Assembly: GCA_946412355.1 (NCBI GenBank)
Contig: CAMKGX010000001.1
Location: forward strand, 109,424-173,423
Reading direction: 5' to 3'
Origin: an uncultured Clostridia bacterium
GTDB taxonomy: Bacteria > Bacillota > Clostridia > Oscillospirales > Oscillospiraceae
DNA length: 64,000 nucleotides
Shown: piece by piece, positions 14,883 to 34,152 of the stretch
How the letters are laid out: each line of letters begins with the position of its first letter
Position numbering within the stretch: the first letter of the stretch is position 1
Made by a program: the position numbers and the translations under genes
Notes under the pieces: model-generated
Databases searched by the model: none
Seen by the model: only the letters and a program-made list of their open reading frames with translations
Told to the model about the DNA's origin: nothing

Positions 14883-14926
14883 CAACCGCAAGTTGACAAA
14901 AAAGGCGGGAGGGCAACGCCAGGTTG
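14883..14926. promoter_or_regulatory. Tandem operator-like dyads CAAC-N5-GTTG (14883-14895 and 14914-14926)
   Basis: CAACCGCAAGTTG and CAACGCCAGGTTG, start-to-start 31 bp; same architecture at 21015-21058. Confidence 0.7.
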
Positions 14927-14927
14927 C

Positions 14928-14956
14928 TTTACAATCCCTTCCATTTGTGCTACCAT
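14928..14956 (+). promoter_or_regulatory. Predicted SigA promoter of ABC exporter operon 1
   Basis: TTTACA-N17-TACCAT, starting 1 bp after the proximal dyad. Confidence 0.6.
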
Positions 14957-14983: not shown

Positions 14984-15715
14984 ATGTTAAATGTATCTCA
15001 CGTTACCAAGAATTACGGCAAGGTGCTGGCCTGTAACGACGTCAGCTTTACCCTGGACGACGGCAGCGTCACTGTGCTGCTGGGGCCCAACGGCGCCGGC
15101 AAGAGCACCATTATGAAGGCTATCATCGGCTTTTTGCGCTATAAGGGCGAGATTACCGTTGACGATATTCCCAACAAATCCGTCCGCGCCCGACGGATCC
15201 TGGGCTACATCCCGGAGCTGCCCTCCCTGTACCCCAACCTGACGGTGGCGGAGCACATGGAATTCCTGGCCCGGGCCTACCGCCTGGAGAATTACAAGGG
15301 CCGCATTGACGAACTGCTGGAGCGTTTTGAGCTGGCGGACAAGCGGAAAAAGTTCGGCGATGAGCTGAGCAAGGGCATGCAGCAGAAGCTGAATCTCTGC
15401 CTGGGCCTGCTGCCCCAGCCCCAGGTGCTGCTGCTGGATGAGCCCATGATCGGTCTCGACCCCCACGCCATCAAGGAGCTGAAGTCCGCCATTGAGGAGA
15501 TGCGGCAGGAGGGGAAAACGCTGCTGGTCAGCACCCACATCATCGACAGCGTGGATATGCTGTGGGACCGCACCCTCATTATGCAGGGCGGCACCATCCG
15601 CGCCAATATGCAGCGCCATGAGCTGGAGCAGGACGGCCGCACGCTGGAGCAGCTCTTCTTCGACGTCACCGAGGGCGTGGAGCGCAGCCACATGACCGGG
15701 GAGGCTGCGGAATGA
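14984..15715 (+). CDS. ABC transporter ATP-binding protein (exporter type)
   Basis: Walker A GPNGAGKST; LSKGMQQKLNLCLGLL; LLLDEPMIGLDP. Confidence 0.93.
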   Translation: MLNVSHVTKNYGKVLACNDVSFTLDDGSVTVLLGPNGAGKSTIMKAIIGFLRYKGEITVDDIPNKSVRARRILGYIPELPSLYPNLTVAEHMEFLARAYRLENYKGRIDELLERFELADKRKKFGDELSKGMQQKLNLCLGLLPQPQVLLLDEPMIGLDPHAIKELKSAIEEMRQEGKTLLVSTHIIDSVDMLWDRTLIMQGGTIRANMQRHELEQDGRTLEQLFFDVTEGVERSHMTGEAAE

Positions 15716-17394
15716 AGCTGTTTTTCTACTATGCGTTCCACTCTTTCGTCAACCAGATCCGCAAGGTGCTGAAAACATGGGTGGCGGTGTTCTTACTGGT
15801 GTGCATCGTCATCGGCGCCGCCATCGGCTTTGGCGCCGCGAAAATCAGCGACTTGAAGGATGCCCAGGACGCCATCGACGCCCAGACGGAGATGGTGGAT
15901 GATGTGGAGCTGCCGCCGGAGCTGGAGGAATATACCGACGGCGCCACCATGGAGGAAACCCTGGGCATTGACCGCCATCAGCTGGTGGAGCTGATTGCCG
16001 GGGCGGTAATTCTGGCGGTATTCGTGATCGAGATTGCCGGGGCCGACAAGAACGGCAGCAAAATCTTCCTCCCCGCCGATGTGACGCTGCTGTTCGCCTC
16101 TCCCATGCGGCCCCAGTCGGTGCTGCTGTTTCGACTGATGACCCAGCTGGGCATGGCGCTGCTGGGCAGCGTGTATCTGCTGTTCCAGCTGCCCAACCTG
16201 ACGCTGAATCTGGGCCTTTCCACAGCGGCGGCATTGAGCATCATCCTCACCTGGTTCGCCACGATCTTCACCGCCAAGCTGACCCAGGTGCTGCTGTATC
16301 TGCTGTGCTCGTCCCATGAAAGGCTGAAGGCCAATCTGCGCCGCATCCTCATCGCCGTGCTGGCGGTGGTGCTGGCGGGTTATCTGGCCTTCTGGCAGTC
16401 CTCCGGCCTTGCCCCGGCGGCAGCGGCAGCCAAGCTGTTCTGCGCCCCCTGGACCCGGTTTGTCCCCCTGTGGGGCTGGCTGAAGGGCGTGGCCATCTTT
16501 GCCGCCGAAGGACCCCTGTGGGCGGCGGTTGTGTGCCTCGCCGCCACGGCTCTGGGCTGCGTGGGACTGATGGCGATTTCGCTGCATCTGAACGTGGACT
16601 TCTACGAGGACGCCATGGCCCAGTCGGAGCAGACGGCGGAGCGCATGGCCCGCATCCAGGCCGAGCAGCCCTCCCGGGTGCTGCTGCGGCGGAAAAAGGA
16701 CCGTAGCGACCGGCTGCGTCGGGATGGCCTCAATCACGGCCGGGGTGCCAGCGTGTTCTTTTTCAAGACCATGTATAACCGTTTCCGCTTCGCCCACCTG
16801 GGTTTTCTGACCAAGACCACCGAGACATATCTGGCGGCGGCCATCGCCGTGGCGGTATTCTGCCGCATGGCACTGGATGTGTACAGCATCCTGCCGGTGG
16901 CGCTGGTGCTGTCGGCTTGCGCTTTCTTCCGGGCCCTGGGCGACCCGCTGCCCGAGGACGTGGAAAACGACTACTTCCGCCTGGTGCCGGAGCAGACGGG
17001 CACCAAGCTGTGGTACTCGCTGCTGGGCGGCGCCGCCTGCTGCGCCCTGGACGTGCTGCCGGCCATGGTGGTGGGCGGCATCGTGATGAAAGCCATGCCC
17101 TGGCAGATGCTGGCCTGGACGGCCTTTGCCGTGTCGGTGGACTTCTTCTCCTCCACGGTGGGCACCTTCATCAGCGTGTCCCTGCCCTCGTCCATGGATA
17201 AGACGATGCGGCAGGTGATGCAGATTATGTTTATCTACTTTGGCCTGGTGCCCAACGCGGGTATCATGGTGCTGGGGATTGTGCTGCACCACGTCACGGC
17301 CGCCGCCATCATCGCCGCCGGTGTCAACGTGGGCCTGGGCCTTATCTTCTTCGCCCTGTCGCCCCTGTTCCTGCCGCCACAAGGTGGTAAATAA
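15712..17394 (+). CDS. ABC exporter permease, large membrane protein
   Basis: ATGA overlap with the ATPase gene; many TM segments over 560 aa. Confidence 0.82.
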   Translation: MKLFFYYAFHSFVNQIRKVLKTWVAVFLLVCIVIGAAIGFGAAKISDLKDAQDAIDAQTEMVDDVELPPELEEYTDGATMEETLGIDRHQLVELIAGAVILAVFVIEIAGADKNGSKIFLPADVTLLFASPMRPQSVLLFRLMTQLGMALLGSVYLLFQLPNLTLNLGLSTAAALSIILTWFATIFTAKLTQVLLYLLCSSHERLKANLRRILIAVLAVVLAGYLAFWQSSGLAPAAAAAKLFCAPWTRFVPLWGWLKGVAIFAAEGPLWAAVVCLAATALGCVGLMAISLHLNVDFYEDAMAQSEQTAERMARIQAEQPSRVLLRRKKDRSDRLRRDGLNHGRGASVFFFKTMYNRFRFAHLGFLTKTTETYLAAAIAVAVFCRMALDVYSILPVALVLSACAFFRALGDPLPEDVENDYFRLVPEQTGTKLWYSLLGGAACCALDVLPAMVVGGIVMKAMPWQMLAWTAFAVSVDFFSSTVGTFISVSLPSSMDKTMRQVMQIMFIYFGLVPNAGIMVLGIVLHHVTAAAIIAAGVNVGLGLIFFALSPLFLPPQGGK

Positions 17395-17770: not shown

Positions 17771-17799
17771 TTGCTTTTTCTGTGGAAAGAGTGTAGAAT
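17771..17799 (+). promoter_or_regulatory. Predicted SigA promoter for the HD-GYP sensor gene
   Basis: TTGCTT-N17-TAGAAT upstream of the ATG at 17873. Confidence 0.55.
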
Positions 17800-17872
17800 A
17801 AAGCGCTTATTGATGATAGGTGGCCTATGCCATTTTTCCGCCCCATCGGGCGGACAGAGAGGAACCTCGCCC

Positions 17873-20800
17873 ATGAGACATTTGTTTGCTCCGAACAGGA
17901 TAATGCGCCTTTGCTGCGCTATGCTGTGCGCGCTTGTGCTGGCCTCCCTTTGGCCCCGCAGCGCGGCAGCGGCCGACGACCTGGCCCTGCACCGCATCGC
18001 CGCGCTGACCGAGGATCTGCTGATGAAGAGCGACGGCTACGATGCCGTGCTGTACGACAACACCAGTGGTCTGCCCACCTCCGAGGCCAACGACATCGTG
18101 GAGACGGCGGAGGGCTTTATCTGGATTGGCAGCTACAGCGGCCTCATTCGCTACGACGGCCTGAACTTCGAGCGGGTGGACTCCACCGCCGGCATCGCCA
18201 GCGTGGTGAGCCTTTTCATGGACAGCCGTGAGCGGCTGTGGATCGGCACCAACGACAGCGGCGTGGCGGTGATGGACAAGGGCGAGATCCGCGCCTATAC
18301 CCGCGCCGACGGCCTGCTGTCCAACTCCGTGCGCTCCATCGTGGAGGACTCCACCGGCACCGTGTACATCGCTACCACCGAGGGCGTGGCCATGGTGGGG
18401 GAGGACATGGTGCTGCGGCAGATTGAGGACCCGCTGATTCGGGAGGAATACCTGCGTGAGGTGGCCCTCAGCCGCAACGACGTGATTTACGGCGTAGGCC
18501 TGAGCAACACCGTCTACACCATCAAGGGCGGCAAGGTGCTGGGCACCTTCCAGGGCCGTGACGAGGCCATCATGTCCCTGCTGCCCGACCCGGACCACCA
18601 GGGCTACGTCTACCTGGGCACCGACCAGTCCGTGATATATTACGGCGACATCAAGGCCGGCTTCCACGGCGAGCGCCGCATCGACGTGTCCCCGCTGGAG
18701 CACGTCAACGATATGCGCCTCGTCAACGGCATGCTGTGGGTCTGCGCCGACAACGGCATCGGCGTGGTGACGGAGGACGGCTTTCGCCTGCTGGAAAACC
18801 TGCCCATGGACAACTCCATCGACCACATGATGGTGGACTATGAAGGCAACCTTTGGTTTACCTCCTCCCGCCAGGGCGTGATGAAGATTGTGCCCAACCA
18901 GTTTATGGATCTGTTCGCCCGGTTTGACCTGCCGGCTGCGGTGGTGAACTCCACCTGCCGCTACGGTGATTTGCTCTTTATCGGCACCGACACCGGTCCC
19001 CTGGCCCTCACGGCAAGCGGCGAGACGAGCACCGTGCCCATTGACGGTGCCCGCACCGCCTCCGGCGAGGATTTGGAAGAGACGGATTTGCTGGCGCTGC
19101 TCTCCCAGTGCCGCATCCGCTCTGTGATTTCCGACAGCCGGGGCAATGTGTGGTTTTCCACCTACAGCAAGCGGGGCCTGGTGCGCTACGACGGCCATGA
19201 GGCTGTCTGCTTTACCAGCGCCGACGGCCTGCCCTCCGACCGCATCCGCGCCGTGTATGAGCGGCAAAATGGCACCATCATGGCGGCCTGCCGCGGCGGC
19301 GTGGCCATCATCGAGGGCGATGCGGTGACGGCGGTGTACGGCGAGGAGAGCGGCATTATCAACACGGAGATCCTCACCGTGGCGGAGACGGCGGCGGGGG
19401 AGATGCTGCTGGGCTCCGACGGCGATGGCATCTATGTTCTCTCTGACGGTGGAAAGGCCCGCCATATCGGCACGGATGACGGCCTGGCCTCCGACATCGT
19501 TATGCGTATCAAGCCCGACCGCACCCGGGATGTGTGCTGGATTGTCACCAGTAATTCCCTGGCCTACATGACCGGCGACGGCGCCGTCACCACGGTGCAG
19601 CGCTTCCCCTATTCCAATAACTTCGACCTCTATGAAAACAGCCGCGGCCAGATATGGGTGCTGAGCAGTAACGGCATTTACGTGGTGGACGCCGCCGAGC
19701 TGCTGGCAAACGGCGACATTCACCCCACCTATTACGGCCGCAACAACGGCTGCTCCGTCATCACCACCGCCAACTCTTACAGCGACCTGACGGCGGAGGG
19801 CGAGCTGTATATCGCCGGCACCACCGGCGTGGCCCGGGTGAATATCGAGACGCCCTTTGACGTGGACGCCCATACCAAGATGGCGGTGCCCTATGTCAGC
19901 GTGGGCGGGCAGTACATCTATGCCGATGAAAACGGCGTCATCAACGTGCCCGCCGGCGACGATAAGCTGACGGTGTATGGCTACGTGTATACCTATTCTC
20001 TGCTGGATCCCCAGATTATCTATTGCCTGGAGGGGCTGGACAGCCAGTATACCACCGTCAACCGCAGCGCCATGACGCCCATTGACTACACCAACCTCCC
20101 CGGCGGCACCTACCGCTTCGTCATGCGTCTCCAGGACCAGAACGGCCTGGCGGACAGCGAGGCATCGGTGACCATCGTCAAGCAGATGGAGCTGCGGGAG
20201 CACCTGTGGTATCGCATCGGCCGCACGCTGCTGGGCATGGCGGCCATCGCTGCGGTGGTGCTGATTTACACCCGCCGCAAGACCCGCCTTTTGGAGCAGA
20301 AGCAAAAGGAAAACCGGGCCTTCATCCAGGAGATGACCGAGGCATTCGCCAAGACCATCGATATGAAGGACAAGTATACCAACGGCCACTCCATCCGTGT
20401 GGCCCACTATACCGCCATGCTCACCCGGGAGCTGGGCTACGATGAGGAGACGGTGGAGAAGTATTACAACATCGCCCTGCTCCACGACATCGGTAAAATC
20501 GGCATCCCCGAGGAGGTGCTGAATAAGCCCGGCAAGCTGACGGACGAGGAGTATCACATCATCCAGTCCCACGCCCAACTGGGCTACAACGTGCTCAAGG
20601 ACATCAGCATCATGCCGGAGCTGGCCATCGGCGCCGGTGCCCACCATGAGCGGCCCGACGGCAAGGGCTATCCCCGGGGCCTCAAGCAGGATGAAATTCC
20701 CCGGGTGGCCCAGATCATCGCCGTGGCCGACACCTTCGACGCCATGTATTCCAACCGCCCTTACCGCCCCCGCATGAATTTCGACAAGGTTGTGGAGATT

Positions 20801-20974
20801 ATCCGGGGCGCCTCCGGCACCCAGCTCACCCCCGACGTGGTGGACGCCTTCCTGCGCTTGGCCGAGCAAGGCAAGCTGCGGGCTAAAAACGACACCGATG
20901 GCGGCGGCAGCTTCGAGGAGATCGACAATCTGAACCGTGGCAGCCAGAGCGAAAAGCAAGACAAAACCGAATAA
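17873..20974 (+). CDS. Beta-propeller (reg_prop/Y_Y_Y-like) sensor with TM helix and C-terminal HD-GYP domain
   Basis: Signal peptide MRHLFAPNRIMRLCCAMLCALVLASLWPRSAAA; repeats of LPTSEANDIVET…GFIWIGSYSGLIRYDG type; TM then HD-GYP (LLHDIGKIGIPEEVLNKPGKL…HHERPDGKGYPRGL). Confidence 0.9.
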   Translation: MRHLFAPNRIMRLCCAMLCALVLASLWPRSAAAADDLALHRIAALTEDLLMKSDGYDAVLYDNTSGLPTSEANDIVETAEGFIWIGSYSGLIRYDGLNFERVDSTAGIASVVSLFMDSRERLWIGTNDSGVAVMDKGEIRAYTRADGLLSNSVRSIVEDSTGTVYIATTEGVAMVGEDMVLRQIEDPLIREEYLREVALSRNDVIYGVGLSNTVYTIKGGKVLGTFQGRDEAIMSLLPDPDHQGYVYLGTDQSVIYYGDIKAGFHGERRIDVSPLEHVNDMRLVNGMLWVCADNGIGVVTEDGFRLLENLPMDNSIDHMMVDYEGNLWFTSSRQGVMKIVPNQFMDLFARFDLPAAVVNSTCRYGDLLFIGTDTGPLALTASGETSTVPIDGARTASGEDLEETDLLALLSQCRIRSVISDSRGNVWFSTYSKRGLVRYDGHEAVCFTSADGLPSDRIRAVYERQNGTIMAACRGGVAIIEGDAVTAVYGEESGIINTEILTVAETAAGEMLLGSDGDGIYVLSDGGKARHIGTDDGLASDIVMRIKPDRTRDVCWIVTSNSLAYMTGDGAVTTVQRFPYSNNFDLYENSRGQIWVLSSNGIYVVDAAELLANGDIHPTYYGRNNGCSVITTANSYSDLTAEGELYIAGTTGVARVNIETPFDVDAHTKMAVPYVSVGGQYIYADENGVINVPAGDDKLTVYGYVYTYSLLDPQIIYCLEGLDSQYTTVNRSAMTPIDYTNLPGGTYRFVMRLQDQNGLADSEASVTIVKQMELREHLWYRIGRTLLGMAAIAAVVLIYTRRKTRLLEQKQKENRAFIQEMTEAFAKTIDMKDKYTNGHSIRVAHYTAMLTRELGYDEETVEKYYNIALLHDIGKIGIPEEVLNKPGKLTDEEYHIIQSHAQLGYNVLKDISIMPELAIGAGAHHERPDGKGYPRGLKQDEIPRVAQIIAVADTFDAMYSNRPYRPRMNFDKVVEIIRGASGTQLTPDVVDAFLRLAEQGKLRAKNDTDGGGSFEEIDNLNRGSQSEKQDKTE

Positions 20975-21014: not shown

Positions 21015-21058
21015 CAACACGCGGTTGCGCAAAAACTCGGCATGGCAACTATAAGTTG
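21015..21058. promoter_or_regulatory. Tandem operator-like dyads CAAC-N5-GTTG (21015-21027 and 21046-21058)
   Basis: CAACACGCGGTTG and CAACTATAAGTTG, start-to-start 31 bp. Confidence 0.7.
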
Positions 21059-21059
21059 C

Positions 21060-21088
21060 TGGACAATGGAATCATTCGGGAGTATACT
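21060..21088 (+). promoter_or_regulatory. Predicted SigA promoter of ABC exporter operon 2
   Basis: TGGACA-N17-TATACT, 1 bp after the proximal dyad. Confidence 0.6.
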
Positions 21089-21138
21089 CGCGGTAACAAC
21101 GGCGCCACAGCGGTGCCTTTTGAGAGGAGAGACAGGAT

Positions 21139-21870
21139 ATGCAAGACAAACCCATGCTGGAGATCCGCCATTTTTCCAAGTCCTACGGCGGGGGCAAGAA
21201 GGCTGTGGACGACCTTTCCCTCCAGGTGATGCCCGGCGATATCTACGGCTTCATCGGCCACAACGGCGCCGGTAAATCCACCACCATTCGCGCGGTGGTG
21301 GGTGTGCTGGATTTCAAGGAGGGGGAGATTTTCATCGGCGGCCACTCCGCCAAAACGGAGCCCCTTGCCTGCAAGCAAATCACCGCCTATATCCCCGATA
21401 ACCCTGACCTGTATGAAAATCTTACCGGCATCCAATACCTCAATTTCATCGCGGACGTGTTCGCCATCGGCCAGCGGGAGCGGGAGGAGCGCATCCGCCG
21501 CTACGCCGACGCCTTCGAGATAACCGCCGACCTGGGCAATCTCATCAGCGCCTATTCCCACGGTATGAAGCAGAAGCTGGCTATCATCTCCGCGCTGATT
21601 CATGAGCCCCGCCTGCTGGTGCTGGATGAGCCCTTTGTGGGCCTGGACCCCAAGGCGACCTTTACCTTGAAGGAAATCATGCGCCAAATGTGCGACCGGG
21701 GCACCGCCATTTTCTTCTCCACCCATGTGCTGGACGTGGCGGAAAAGCTGTGCAACAAGGTTGCCATCATCAAGCACGGCCGTCTCATTGCCGCCGGCCC
21801 CATGGCCGAGCTGACCGAGGGCCACTCCCTGGAGGAGGCCTTCCTGGAGGTGGACGGCGATGAAAGGTAG
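21139..21870 (+). CDS. ABC transporter ATP-binding protein (exporter type)
   Basis: Walker A GHNGAGKST; YSHGMKQKLAIISALI; LVLDEPFVGLDP. Confidence 0.93.
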   Translation: MQDKPMLEIRHFSKSYGGGKKAVDDLSLQVMPGDIYGFIGHNGAGKSTTIRAVVGVLDFKEGEIFIGGHSAKTEPLACKQITAYIPDNPDLYENLTGIQYLNFIADVFAIGQREREERIRRYADAFEITADLGNLISAYSHGMKQKLAIISALIHEPRLLVLDEPFVGLDPKATFTLKEIMRQMCDRGTAIFFSTHVLDVAEKLCNKVAIIKHGRLIAAGPMAELTEGHSLEEAFLEVDGDER

Positions 21871-23458
21871 CCTTCTGCTGCTGCGCACCATGCTCCGGGC
21901 CACCGGCCGGGGGAACGTGTACCGCCACACCACCGACGGCAAGCTGCGGCGGAAAATCGTGATGGGCTGGGTGGGCCTGGCGGTGCTGTACGCCATGCTG
22001 GTGTTTTACAGCGGCGCCATGGCCTTAGGCTACGGCAGCATCGGCTTCCAGGACGTGGTGCCGGGGGTGTGCGCGCTGACGGTCAGCGCCCTGGCGTTTA
22101 TTATGACGCTTTTCCGCACCAACGGCTATCTCTTCCGTTTCCGGGAGTACGACCTGGTGATGTCCCTGCCCTTTAGCGCCCGGACGGTGGCCCTCAGCAA
22201 ATTTCTACTGATGTATGTGCGTCTGCTGCCCTGGTATCTCAGCCTGTCGCTGCCCATGCTGGTGGGCTACGGACTCTATGCCCGGGCGGGGGTGTGGGTC
22301 TATCCGGTGTGGGTGGTGCTGACGCTGGCGCTGCCCATCATCCCCATGGTGGCGGCGTCCTTTGTGGGCTTTCTCATTGCCCGTATCAGCGCCGGTTTCC
22401 GCAAGACCAACATCGTCCAAACGGTGCTTACCTTTGCCTTTGTGCTGTTTTGCTTCTCGCTGCGGTTTATCATCGAGGACGTTATCCGGGATGACGCCGT
22501 GGACGCGGTGCTGACCCAGATGGCGGAGGCCCTGGGCGGCGCCATGGCCACCTATCCGCCGGCGGCCTGGTTTACCGGCGCCGTGACGGGGGAGAACTGG
22601 CTGGGCGGGCCGCTGCTGCTCCTTGCCAGCGCCGCGCTGCTGGCCCTGGTGTTCTGGATCGTGGGCGGCGCCTACCGCAACATCAACTCCGCCCTCCAAT
22701 CCCACGCCGCCGGTAAGCGTTTTTCCATGAAGGCACAGCATCAGCGCAGCGCCGAAGCGGCCATCGCCCACAAGGAGCTTCGCCGCCTGCTGGGCTCCAC
22801 CAACTACATGGTCAACGGCGCCATGGGCGAAGTGCTGGCGGCGCTGCTGGGCGTGGCCACGCTGGTCGTTGGCTTCGACAAAATCGTGGCCATGGTCACC
22901 CACAACGCCCCCTTCGACCCGGCCATTTTGCATCCCGCCATTCCCTTTATCGTCTATTTCCTCATCGGCATGATGGCCACCACTGCCTGCTCGCCGTCGC
23001 TGGAGGGGAAAAACTTCTGGATTTTGCAGAGTCTGCCTCTGTCCATGCAGACGGTGTACCGGGGTAAAATGCTGTTCAACATGATGCTGACGGTGCCCTT
23101 CATGGCCTTTGCCACCCTTTGTCTGTGCCTGTCGGCCCGCGTCAGCGCGGTGCATACGGCGCTGTATCTGCTGTTGGGGTTGGCGCTGTGCGCTTTCTCC
23201 ACTGCCTGGGGCTGCGTGTGCGGGGTCCGGTTCCGCAAGCTGGACTGGGTCAACGAGATGGAGGTCATCAAACAGGGAACGGCGGTGGCGCTGTATCTGC
23301 TGCCCAATATGTTCGTGGTCATGGGGCTTACAGTGCTGGTGGTGGTGCTGGGCCGCAGGATGGACCACGCCGTGCTGGCCCTGCTCTTTACGGCCATCGC
23401 CGGGTTGCTGGCGCTGCTGAGCTACCTGCGGGTGATGAAGCTGGCGGAGAAAGAATAA
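21860..23458 (+). CDS. ABC exporter permease, large membrane protein
   Basis: Overlaps the ATPase gene; many TM segments over 532 aa. Confidence 0.82.
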   Translation: MKGSLLLLRTMLRATGRGNVYRHTTDGKLRRKIVMGWVGLAVLYAMLVFYSGAMALGYGSIGFQDVVPGVCALTVSALAFIMTLFRTNGYLFRFREYDLVMSLPFSARTVALSKFLLMYVRLLPWYLSLSLPMLVGYGLYARAGVWVYPVWVVLTLALPIIPMVAASFVGFLIARISAGFRKTNIVQTVLTFAFVLFCFSLRFIIEDVIRDDAVDAVLTQMAEALGGAMATYPPAAWFTGAVTGENWLGGPLLLLASAALLALVFWIVGGAYRNINSALQSHAAGKRFSMKAQHQRSAEAAIAHKELRRLLGSTNYMVNGAMGEVLAALLGVATLVVGFDKIVAMVTHNAPFDPAILHPAIPFIVYFLIGMMATTACSPSLEGKNFWILQSLPLSMQTVYRGKMLFNMMLTVPFMAFATLCLCLSARVSAVHTALYLLLGLALCAFSTAWGCVCGVRFRKLDWVNEMEVIKQGTAVALYLLPNMFVVMGLTVLVVVLGRRMDHAVLALLFTAIAGLLALLSYLRVMKLAEKE

Positions 23459-33805: not shown

Positions 33806-34152
33806 GCGAGTTGGTCGGACAGCCGCGGGGGTCAAGCGAAAGCTGGCCCATGAGGAAAGTCCGGGCTCCACAGGGCAAGGATAACGGGTAACGCCCGCCG
33901 AAGGCGACTTCAGGAAAAGTGCAACAGAGAGATACCGCCCTGCCGCAAGGCGGGGTAAGGGTGGAAAGGCGAGGTAAGAGCTCACCCGTCGGCTGGAGAC
34001 AGTCCGATGCTGTAAACTCTATCCGGAGCAACACCGCTATGGGGACAGGAGGCTGGCCCGGCCGTCCCCGAGGTGGCTGGAGCGCACCGGCAACGATGCG
34101 CCTAGATAGATGGCTGTCAAGACAGAACCCGGCTTATAGACCATCTCGCACA
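33806..34152 (+). ncRNA. rnpB: RNase P RNA (bacterial, A-type-like)
   Basis: GAGGAAAGTCCGGGCTCCACAGGGC and ACAGAACCCGGCTTATAG; terminal GCGAG/CTCGC pairing. Confidence 0.95.

Follow-up and report, generated by a model that had tools for sequence, protein, structure and literature searches.

Lambda CI, the classic member of the XRE/HTH_3 group, activates PRM from a site near -42 by touching sigma. In Bacillus subtilis, the sigma-W regulon comprises yuaF-floT-yuaI, the ythP-ythQ ABC transporter and pspA-ydjGHI (PMC3498285, PMC2636767, PMC8581546). FloT recruits NfeD2 in this organism (PMC4928834), and the ydjG primer given in PMC8581546 reads MIISYKCPNC, indicating a possible zinc-ribbon membrane protein. 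An NfeD domain fused to another module is known from NfeD1b, where NfeD is joined to a ClpP-like protease and encoded in an operon with an SPFH gene (PMC2636767). HTH regulators near envelope-stress genes, NfeD as a gene-neighbourhood partner and a context of PspA, band-7 and NfeD proteins are described in passages of PMC9239133.

The locus analysed here lies in a window of 64,000 nucleotides (the whole stretch of DNA studied) and contains two ABC exporter operons preceded by paired dyads, whose likely regulator is an XRE-NfeD fusion protein encoded elsewhere in the same genome (contig C72). As in the sigma-W regulon, one control would cover NfeD with SPFH, an ABC transporter operon and a zinc-ribbon membrane protein (only a possible one in the case of ydjG); the likeness is one of gene kinds, and an equivalence of operon 2 with ythPQ or of the zinc-ribbon gene with ydjG is at most putative. 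Sigma-W belongs to the ECF sigma factors and uses a promoter type of its own; the system described here has -35 and -10 hexamers 17 bp apart, paired dyads and a likely XRE-NfeD regulator. The predicted binding of HTH_3-type dimers to tandem palindromes, with a site near -42 able to activate, resembles the textbook arrangement of lambda CI at OR2/PRM; the spacing of 31–33 or 41–43 bp differs from the approximately 24 bp of lambda, and the fusion protein (P0003) has transmembrane segments and an NfeD domain in place of the C-terminal domain of CI. With NfeD1b it shares an NfeD domain carrying another module fused at its N-terminus and a gene located beside an SPFH gene, but the fused module is an XRE HTH instead of a protease, and the review PMC2636767 names no HTH fusion. 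The HTH regulators of PspA neighbourhoods differ in being separate proteins of pspA operons, with no NfeD fusion or operator described in the passages of PMC9239133 that concern them. No description of an XRE-NfeD fusion or its regulon was found in the literature searched, which was limited in extent.

Paired dyads ahead of two ABC exporter operons

Each of the two operons is preceded by two dyads of the form CAAC-N5-GTTG (Table 1), spaced 31 bp start to start and with a single base between the proximal dyad and the -35 element. In both promoters 17 bp separate the -35 and -10 hexamers, and neither is of ECF type; that of operon 2 (TGGACA-N17-TATACT) is sigma-70-like, with 10 of 12 consensus matches. 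The sequence-only reading had placed two dyads and this promoter ahead of operon 2, which is exactly what the sequence contains, and had noted that the distance between proximal dyad and -10 element matches in the two operons (25 nt), which holds for both when counted from dyad end to -10 start.

Table 1. Positions in the window of the dyads, promoter elements and genes of the two exporter operons.
Feature	Position	Strand	Basis and remarks
Operon 1 distal dyad CAACCGCAAGTTG	14883..14895	+	Exact pattern; invariant half-sites; abuts stop codon of the gene upstream
Operon 1 proximal dyad CAACGCCAGGTTG	14914..14926	+	Exact pattern; invariant half-sites; weight-matrix score
Operon 1 promoter TTTACA-N17-TACCAT	14928..14956	+	Sequence; -35 at 14928-14933, -10 at 14951-14956
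Operon 1 ABC ATPase, 243 aa	14984..15715	+	ORF and domain match
Operon 1 ABC permease, 560 aa, PF16962 ABC_export	15712..17394	+	ORF and domain match
Operon 2 distal dyad CAACACGCGGTTG	21015..21027	+	Exact pattern; half-sites invariant in four species; centre at about -74 from inferred start site
Operon 2 proximal dyad CAACTATAAGTTG	21046..21058	+	Exact pattern; half-sites invariant in four species; weight-matrix score; centre at about -43
Operon 2 -35 element TGGACA	21060..21065	+	Sequence
Operon 2 -10 element TATACT, 17-bp spacer	21083..21088	+	Sequence; -35/-10 pair present in congeners too
Operon 2 ABC ATPase, 243 aa, PF00005	21139..21870	+	ORF and domain match
Operon 2 ABC permease, 532 aa, PF16949 ABC_tran_2	21860..23458	+	ORF and domain match

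Exact dyads were found five times in the window against 0.93 expected, a number reached in one of 100 shuffles. Across the whole genome (2,062,587 bp), single dyads numbered 28 compared with 12 for the reversed pattern and lay mostly within genes. An exact dyad pair with a gap of 14–22 bp occurred only at operons 1 and 2, and the reversed-pattern control for such a pair gave no match in the same 2,062,587 bp.

Both promoters are present in four close species of the genus, namely that of the window and G036, G188 and G214, and were aligned across them, a comparison that the sequence-only reading had called for. None of 32 half-site positions varied, compared with 27 of 56 other positions (Fisher p=2.2e-7). 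Within the genome of the window, the promoters of operons 1 and 2 are identical at all 16 half-site positions and at only 12 of the 28 others; because of this pattern a recent duplication is unlikely, as had been claimed earlier. Judged by this conservation, the paired repeats ahead of both exporter operons are genuine control sites that evolution has preserved.

Several further matches were examined and rejected as operators. Exact 31-bp pairs in other genera (G030, G062) look incidental, the second dyad in G062 being the stem of a terminator-like hairpin, and a one-mismatch match in G228 is inside coding sequence. A cluster of matches with two or three mismatches in the genome turned out to be a dispersed repeat with the core CCCTACGG-(A/G)CGGTTGTCGA...CCATTCAACCGGGC, found at seven or more sites in the genome (L019, L020, L022, L023, L025, L026 and L027 near position 1500) and in G214.

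The leader of operon 2 contains, at 21100-21119, the sequence GGCGCC-ACAGC-GGTGCC followed by TTTT, and a similar hairpin with altered loop occurs in G036, G188 and G214; it is possibly an attenuator or an mRNA-stabilising stem. Between the two exporter operons (17771-20974) lies a gene whose product (1067 aa) carries a two-component-regulator propeller and, at its C-terminus, an HD-GYP domain, without a kinase match. The exact-pattern scan of the window found no dyad upstream of this gene, and no kinase/regulator pair of BceRS or LiaRS type was found among it and the genes of operons 1 and 2. Elsewhere in the window, 33807-34152 encodes an ordinary bacterial class A RNase P RNA.

The XRE-NfeD fusion and its promoters

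The product of the C72 gene, P0003 (280 residues), begins with an XRE HTH, continues through a proline-rich linker and a transmembrane segment, and ends in an NfeD part that has transmembrane segments and a C-terminal domain of its own. Matches to HTH_3 (PF01381; 50.4 bits, curated cut-off 23) and NfeD (PF01957; 59.8 bits, cut-off 29.1) exceeded their cut-offs, hydropathy peaks were located at 111-129, 140-158, 158-176 and 180-198, and the nearest solved structures were those of ComR and ICEBs1 Xre-family HTHs. The gene that follows encodes an SPFH/band-7 protein (Band_7, 113 bits), and an SPFH motif was found downstream in 33 of 34 orthologous XRE-NfeD loci. Among the orthologues the recognition helix (VSRQ[AS]VSKWESG) hardly varies. 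Full-length matches were obtained in 29 of 32 genomes of the window's genus, in all eight sampled from g80 and in one each of g59 and g6; among the matches listed, full-length proteins were found only in genera g1, g80, g59 and g6, and for most of the remaining sampled genera the best match spanned the NfeD half only.

In the window's own genome a dyad lies upstream of the C72 gene, and no paired site was found upstream of its other XRE genes. Were the XRE-NfeD protein to read the dyads, promoters of its orthologues would be expected to have them too, also outside the genus of the window. Tandem dyads with the consensus GCAACTTCAAGTTGC were present at the same place in all 39 XRE-NfeD promoters examined (genera g1, g80, g59 and g6), two or three of them weak (G238, G155, G202). 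The left half of the distal dyad is often AAAC, and that of the proximal dyad often CAAA or CAAT. Spacing start to start was 31–33 or 41–43 bp, once 53 bp and never 34–40 bp. As the species are related, these counts are interdependent, and they leave some latitude in the exact period; G201 and G223 were assigned 32 bp, their deviating automatic readings being register errors. By these distances the spacing classes correspond to three, four or five helical turns, and with one or two extra turns both sites would stay on the same helix face, as two interacting dimers need.

Distribution of the sites among predicted target genes

A relaxed pattern was defined as the second half of the distal dyad, 17–21 bp, the full proximal dyad and part of the -35 element. 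It matched the genome of the window in exactly four places: at the two exporter operons, at the XRE-NfeD gene on C72 and at a gene that lies beside rplQ/lexA and encodes a zinc-ribbon membrane protein. The genomes of the three close species each gave these same four. The reversed control gave two matches over 32 genomes. Allowing one mismatch revealed similar pairs ahead of XRE-type HTH genes in two other congeners. With a stricter pattern, 10 of 401 genomes of the family matched, all of them in g1, g80 and g59, genera with the fusion, and the reversed control gave none.

A weight matrix was derived solely from the XRE-NfeD promoters of genomes other than those of the four close species. The promoters of operon 1, operon 2 and the zinc-ribbon gene each scored above all 300 shuffles (0/300 as good), with the sites of operon 1 lowest (14–16 bits, compared with 40–51 bits for the best). 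Over all loci collected, paired matches at threshold comprised more than 100 distinct sequences versus two on reversed sequence, a ratio that serves as a guide only, as loci were preselected and palindromes counted on both strands.

The dyads precede operon 2 in 8 of the 18 congeners having its permease, that is the four close species and G218, G220, G221 and G228, whose ATPase orthologues have 62–66% identity; the operon 2 promoters of the ten other congeners examined were without sites. Orthologues of operon 1 outside the four close species (approximately 50% identity) had no dyads, and operon 1 was dropped as a route to the regulator for this reason. Because sites beyond the close species were found for operon 2 and not for operon 1, operon 2 is by these comparisons the recurrent target and operon 1 the narrower one, restricted to the subclade of the window. 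The zinc-ribbon genes have a site in at least nine species. The shared architecture that the sequence-only reading saw in the two exporter operons has gained comparative support and a wider regulon, but the operons are not equivalent and the spacing is not fixed.

Similar sites also occur ahead of different XRE genes in G206, G211 and G224, suggesting a possible second XRE user of such sites. The tandem-dyad promoter in G206 (L070) precedes a small membrane protein gene, then a 66-aa XRE gene and an ABC ATPase gene; that in G211 (L147) likewise precedes a small membrane protein gene, with an ABC ATPase gene downstream. A DUF2812-like gene stands behind dyads in G218 (L151), and the palindrome CTTTCCAACCGTCGGTTGGAAAG lies upstream of a different XRE gene of the window's own genome in L114 (contig C85, around position 1243).

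Predicted regulator and mode of action

The dyads are probably operators of an autoregulated, membrane-tethered XRE-NfeD regulator controlling the exporter operons, the zinc-ribbon gene and its own operon, and the protein binding them is likely to be XRE-NfeD itself. Two dimers would occupy the two dyads of each promoter, with the XRE domain reading [C/A]AAC-N5-GTTG palindromes on one helix face, three or four turns apart and once five, and the proximal operator would sit directly against a -35 element departing from the consensus. From its gene ahead of the SPFH/band-7 gene on C72, the regulator would control its own operon, and the same protein both exporter operons of the window and the zinc-ribbon membrane protein. 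As NfeD sits with its SPFH partner in the membrane, a DNA-binding domain fused to NfeD could report the state of this assembly; whether it responds to disturbance of the membrane or envelope, sensed together with the NfeD/SPFH partner, is an even call.

Activation, comparable to that by lambda CI from its site near -42, is somewhat favoured on two grounds: counted from the -10 element, the proximal dyad has its centre near -43, and TGGACA or TTTACA stands in place of TTGACA as the -35 element. The same XRE-NfeD protein might instead be a repressor, its two dimers beside the -35 element hindering RNA polymerase until a membrane signal frees them. Many XRE proteins are autorepressors and the proximal dyad is 1 bp from the -35 element, but the dyads are upstream of it and cover neither hexamer, their centres near -43 and -74 suit class II activation, and in the promoters seen the -35 hexamers differ from TTGACA; repression is the less probable of the two modes.

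It is unlikely that the dyads are read by a different regulator encoded elsewhere, for example a response regulator or a protein of TetR/MarR type, with the XRE-NfeD operon as one more target. Such a factor would yield the same pattern, similar dyads are also found ahead of other genes, three unrelated XRE genes of congeners among them, and G220 has a site before operon 2 although its assembly, 96% complete, yielded no full-length XRE-NfeD. Against this, of the targets found only the XRE-NfeD promoter recurs in all four fusion-bearing genera, and autoregulation is suggested because this universally present target is itself an HTH protein, the usual sign of it; a palindrome of 13–15 bp is moreover the usual size for an XRE dimer site. 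An origin of the dyads by chance, or by copying with one operon in a recent duplication, is extremely improbable: single dyads are common in the genome, but the pairs occur only twice with an empty reversed control, their half-sites are invariant in four species while the operons differ at 16 of 28 other positions, the same sites recur in other genera, and none of the shuffles equalled the weight-matrix scores.

SPFH/NfeD scaffolds are widespread, and the route from the state of the scaffold to gene expression is not settled. Tentatively, the XRE-NfeD protein may form a one-component envelope-stress system, a transcription factor built into the SPFH scaffold, in which the state of the membrane microdomain would set DNA binding and, through two dimers bound on one helix face, control exporters, a zinc-ribbon protein and the scaffold itself; it would be a functional counterpart to the sigma-W regulon that needs no ECF sigma factor. 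An HTH-NfeD fusion with a predicted operator, a spacing rule and a short list of targets makes the question of how scaffold state reaches gene expression directly testable, and it provides a likely regulator for ABC exporters that lack an adjacent regulator gene in uncultured Oscillospiraceae of the rumen and gut.
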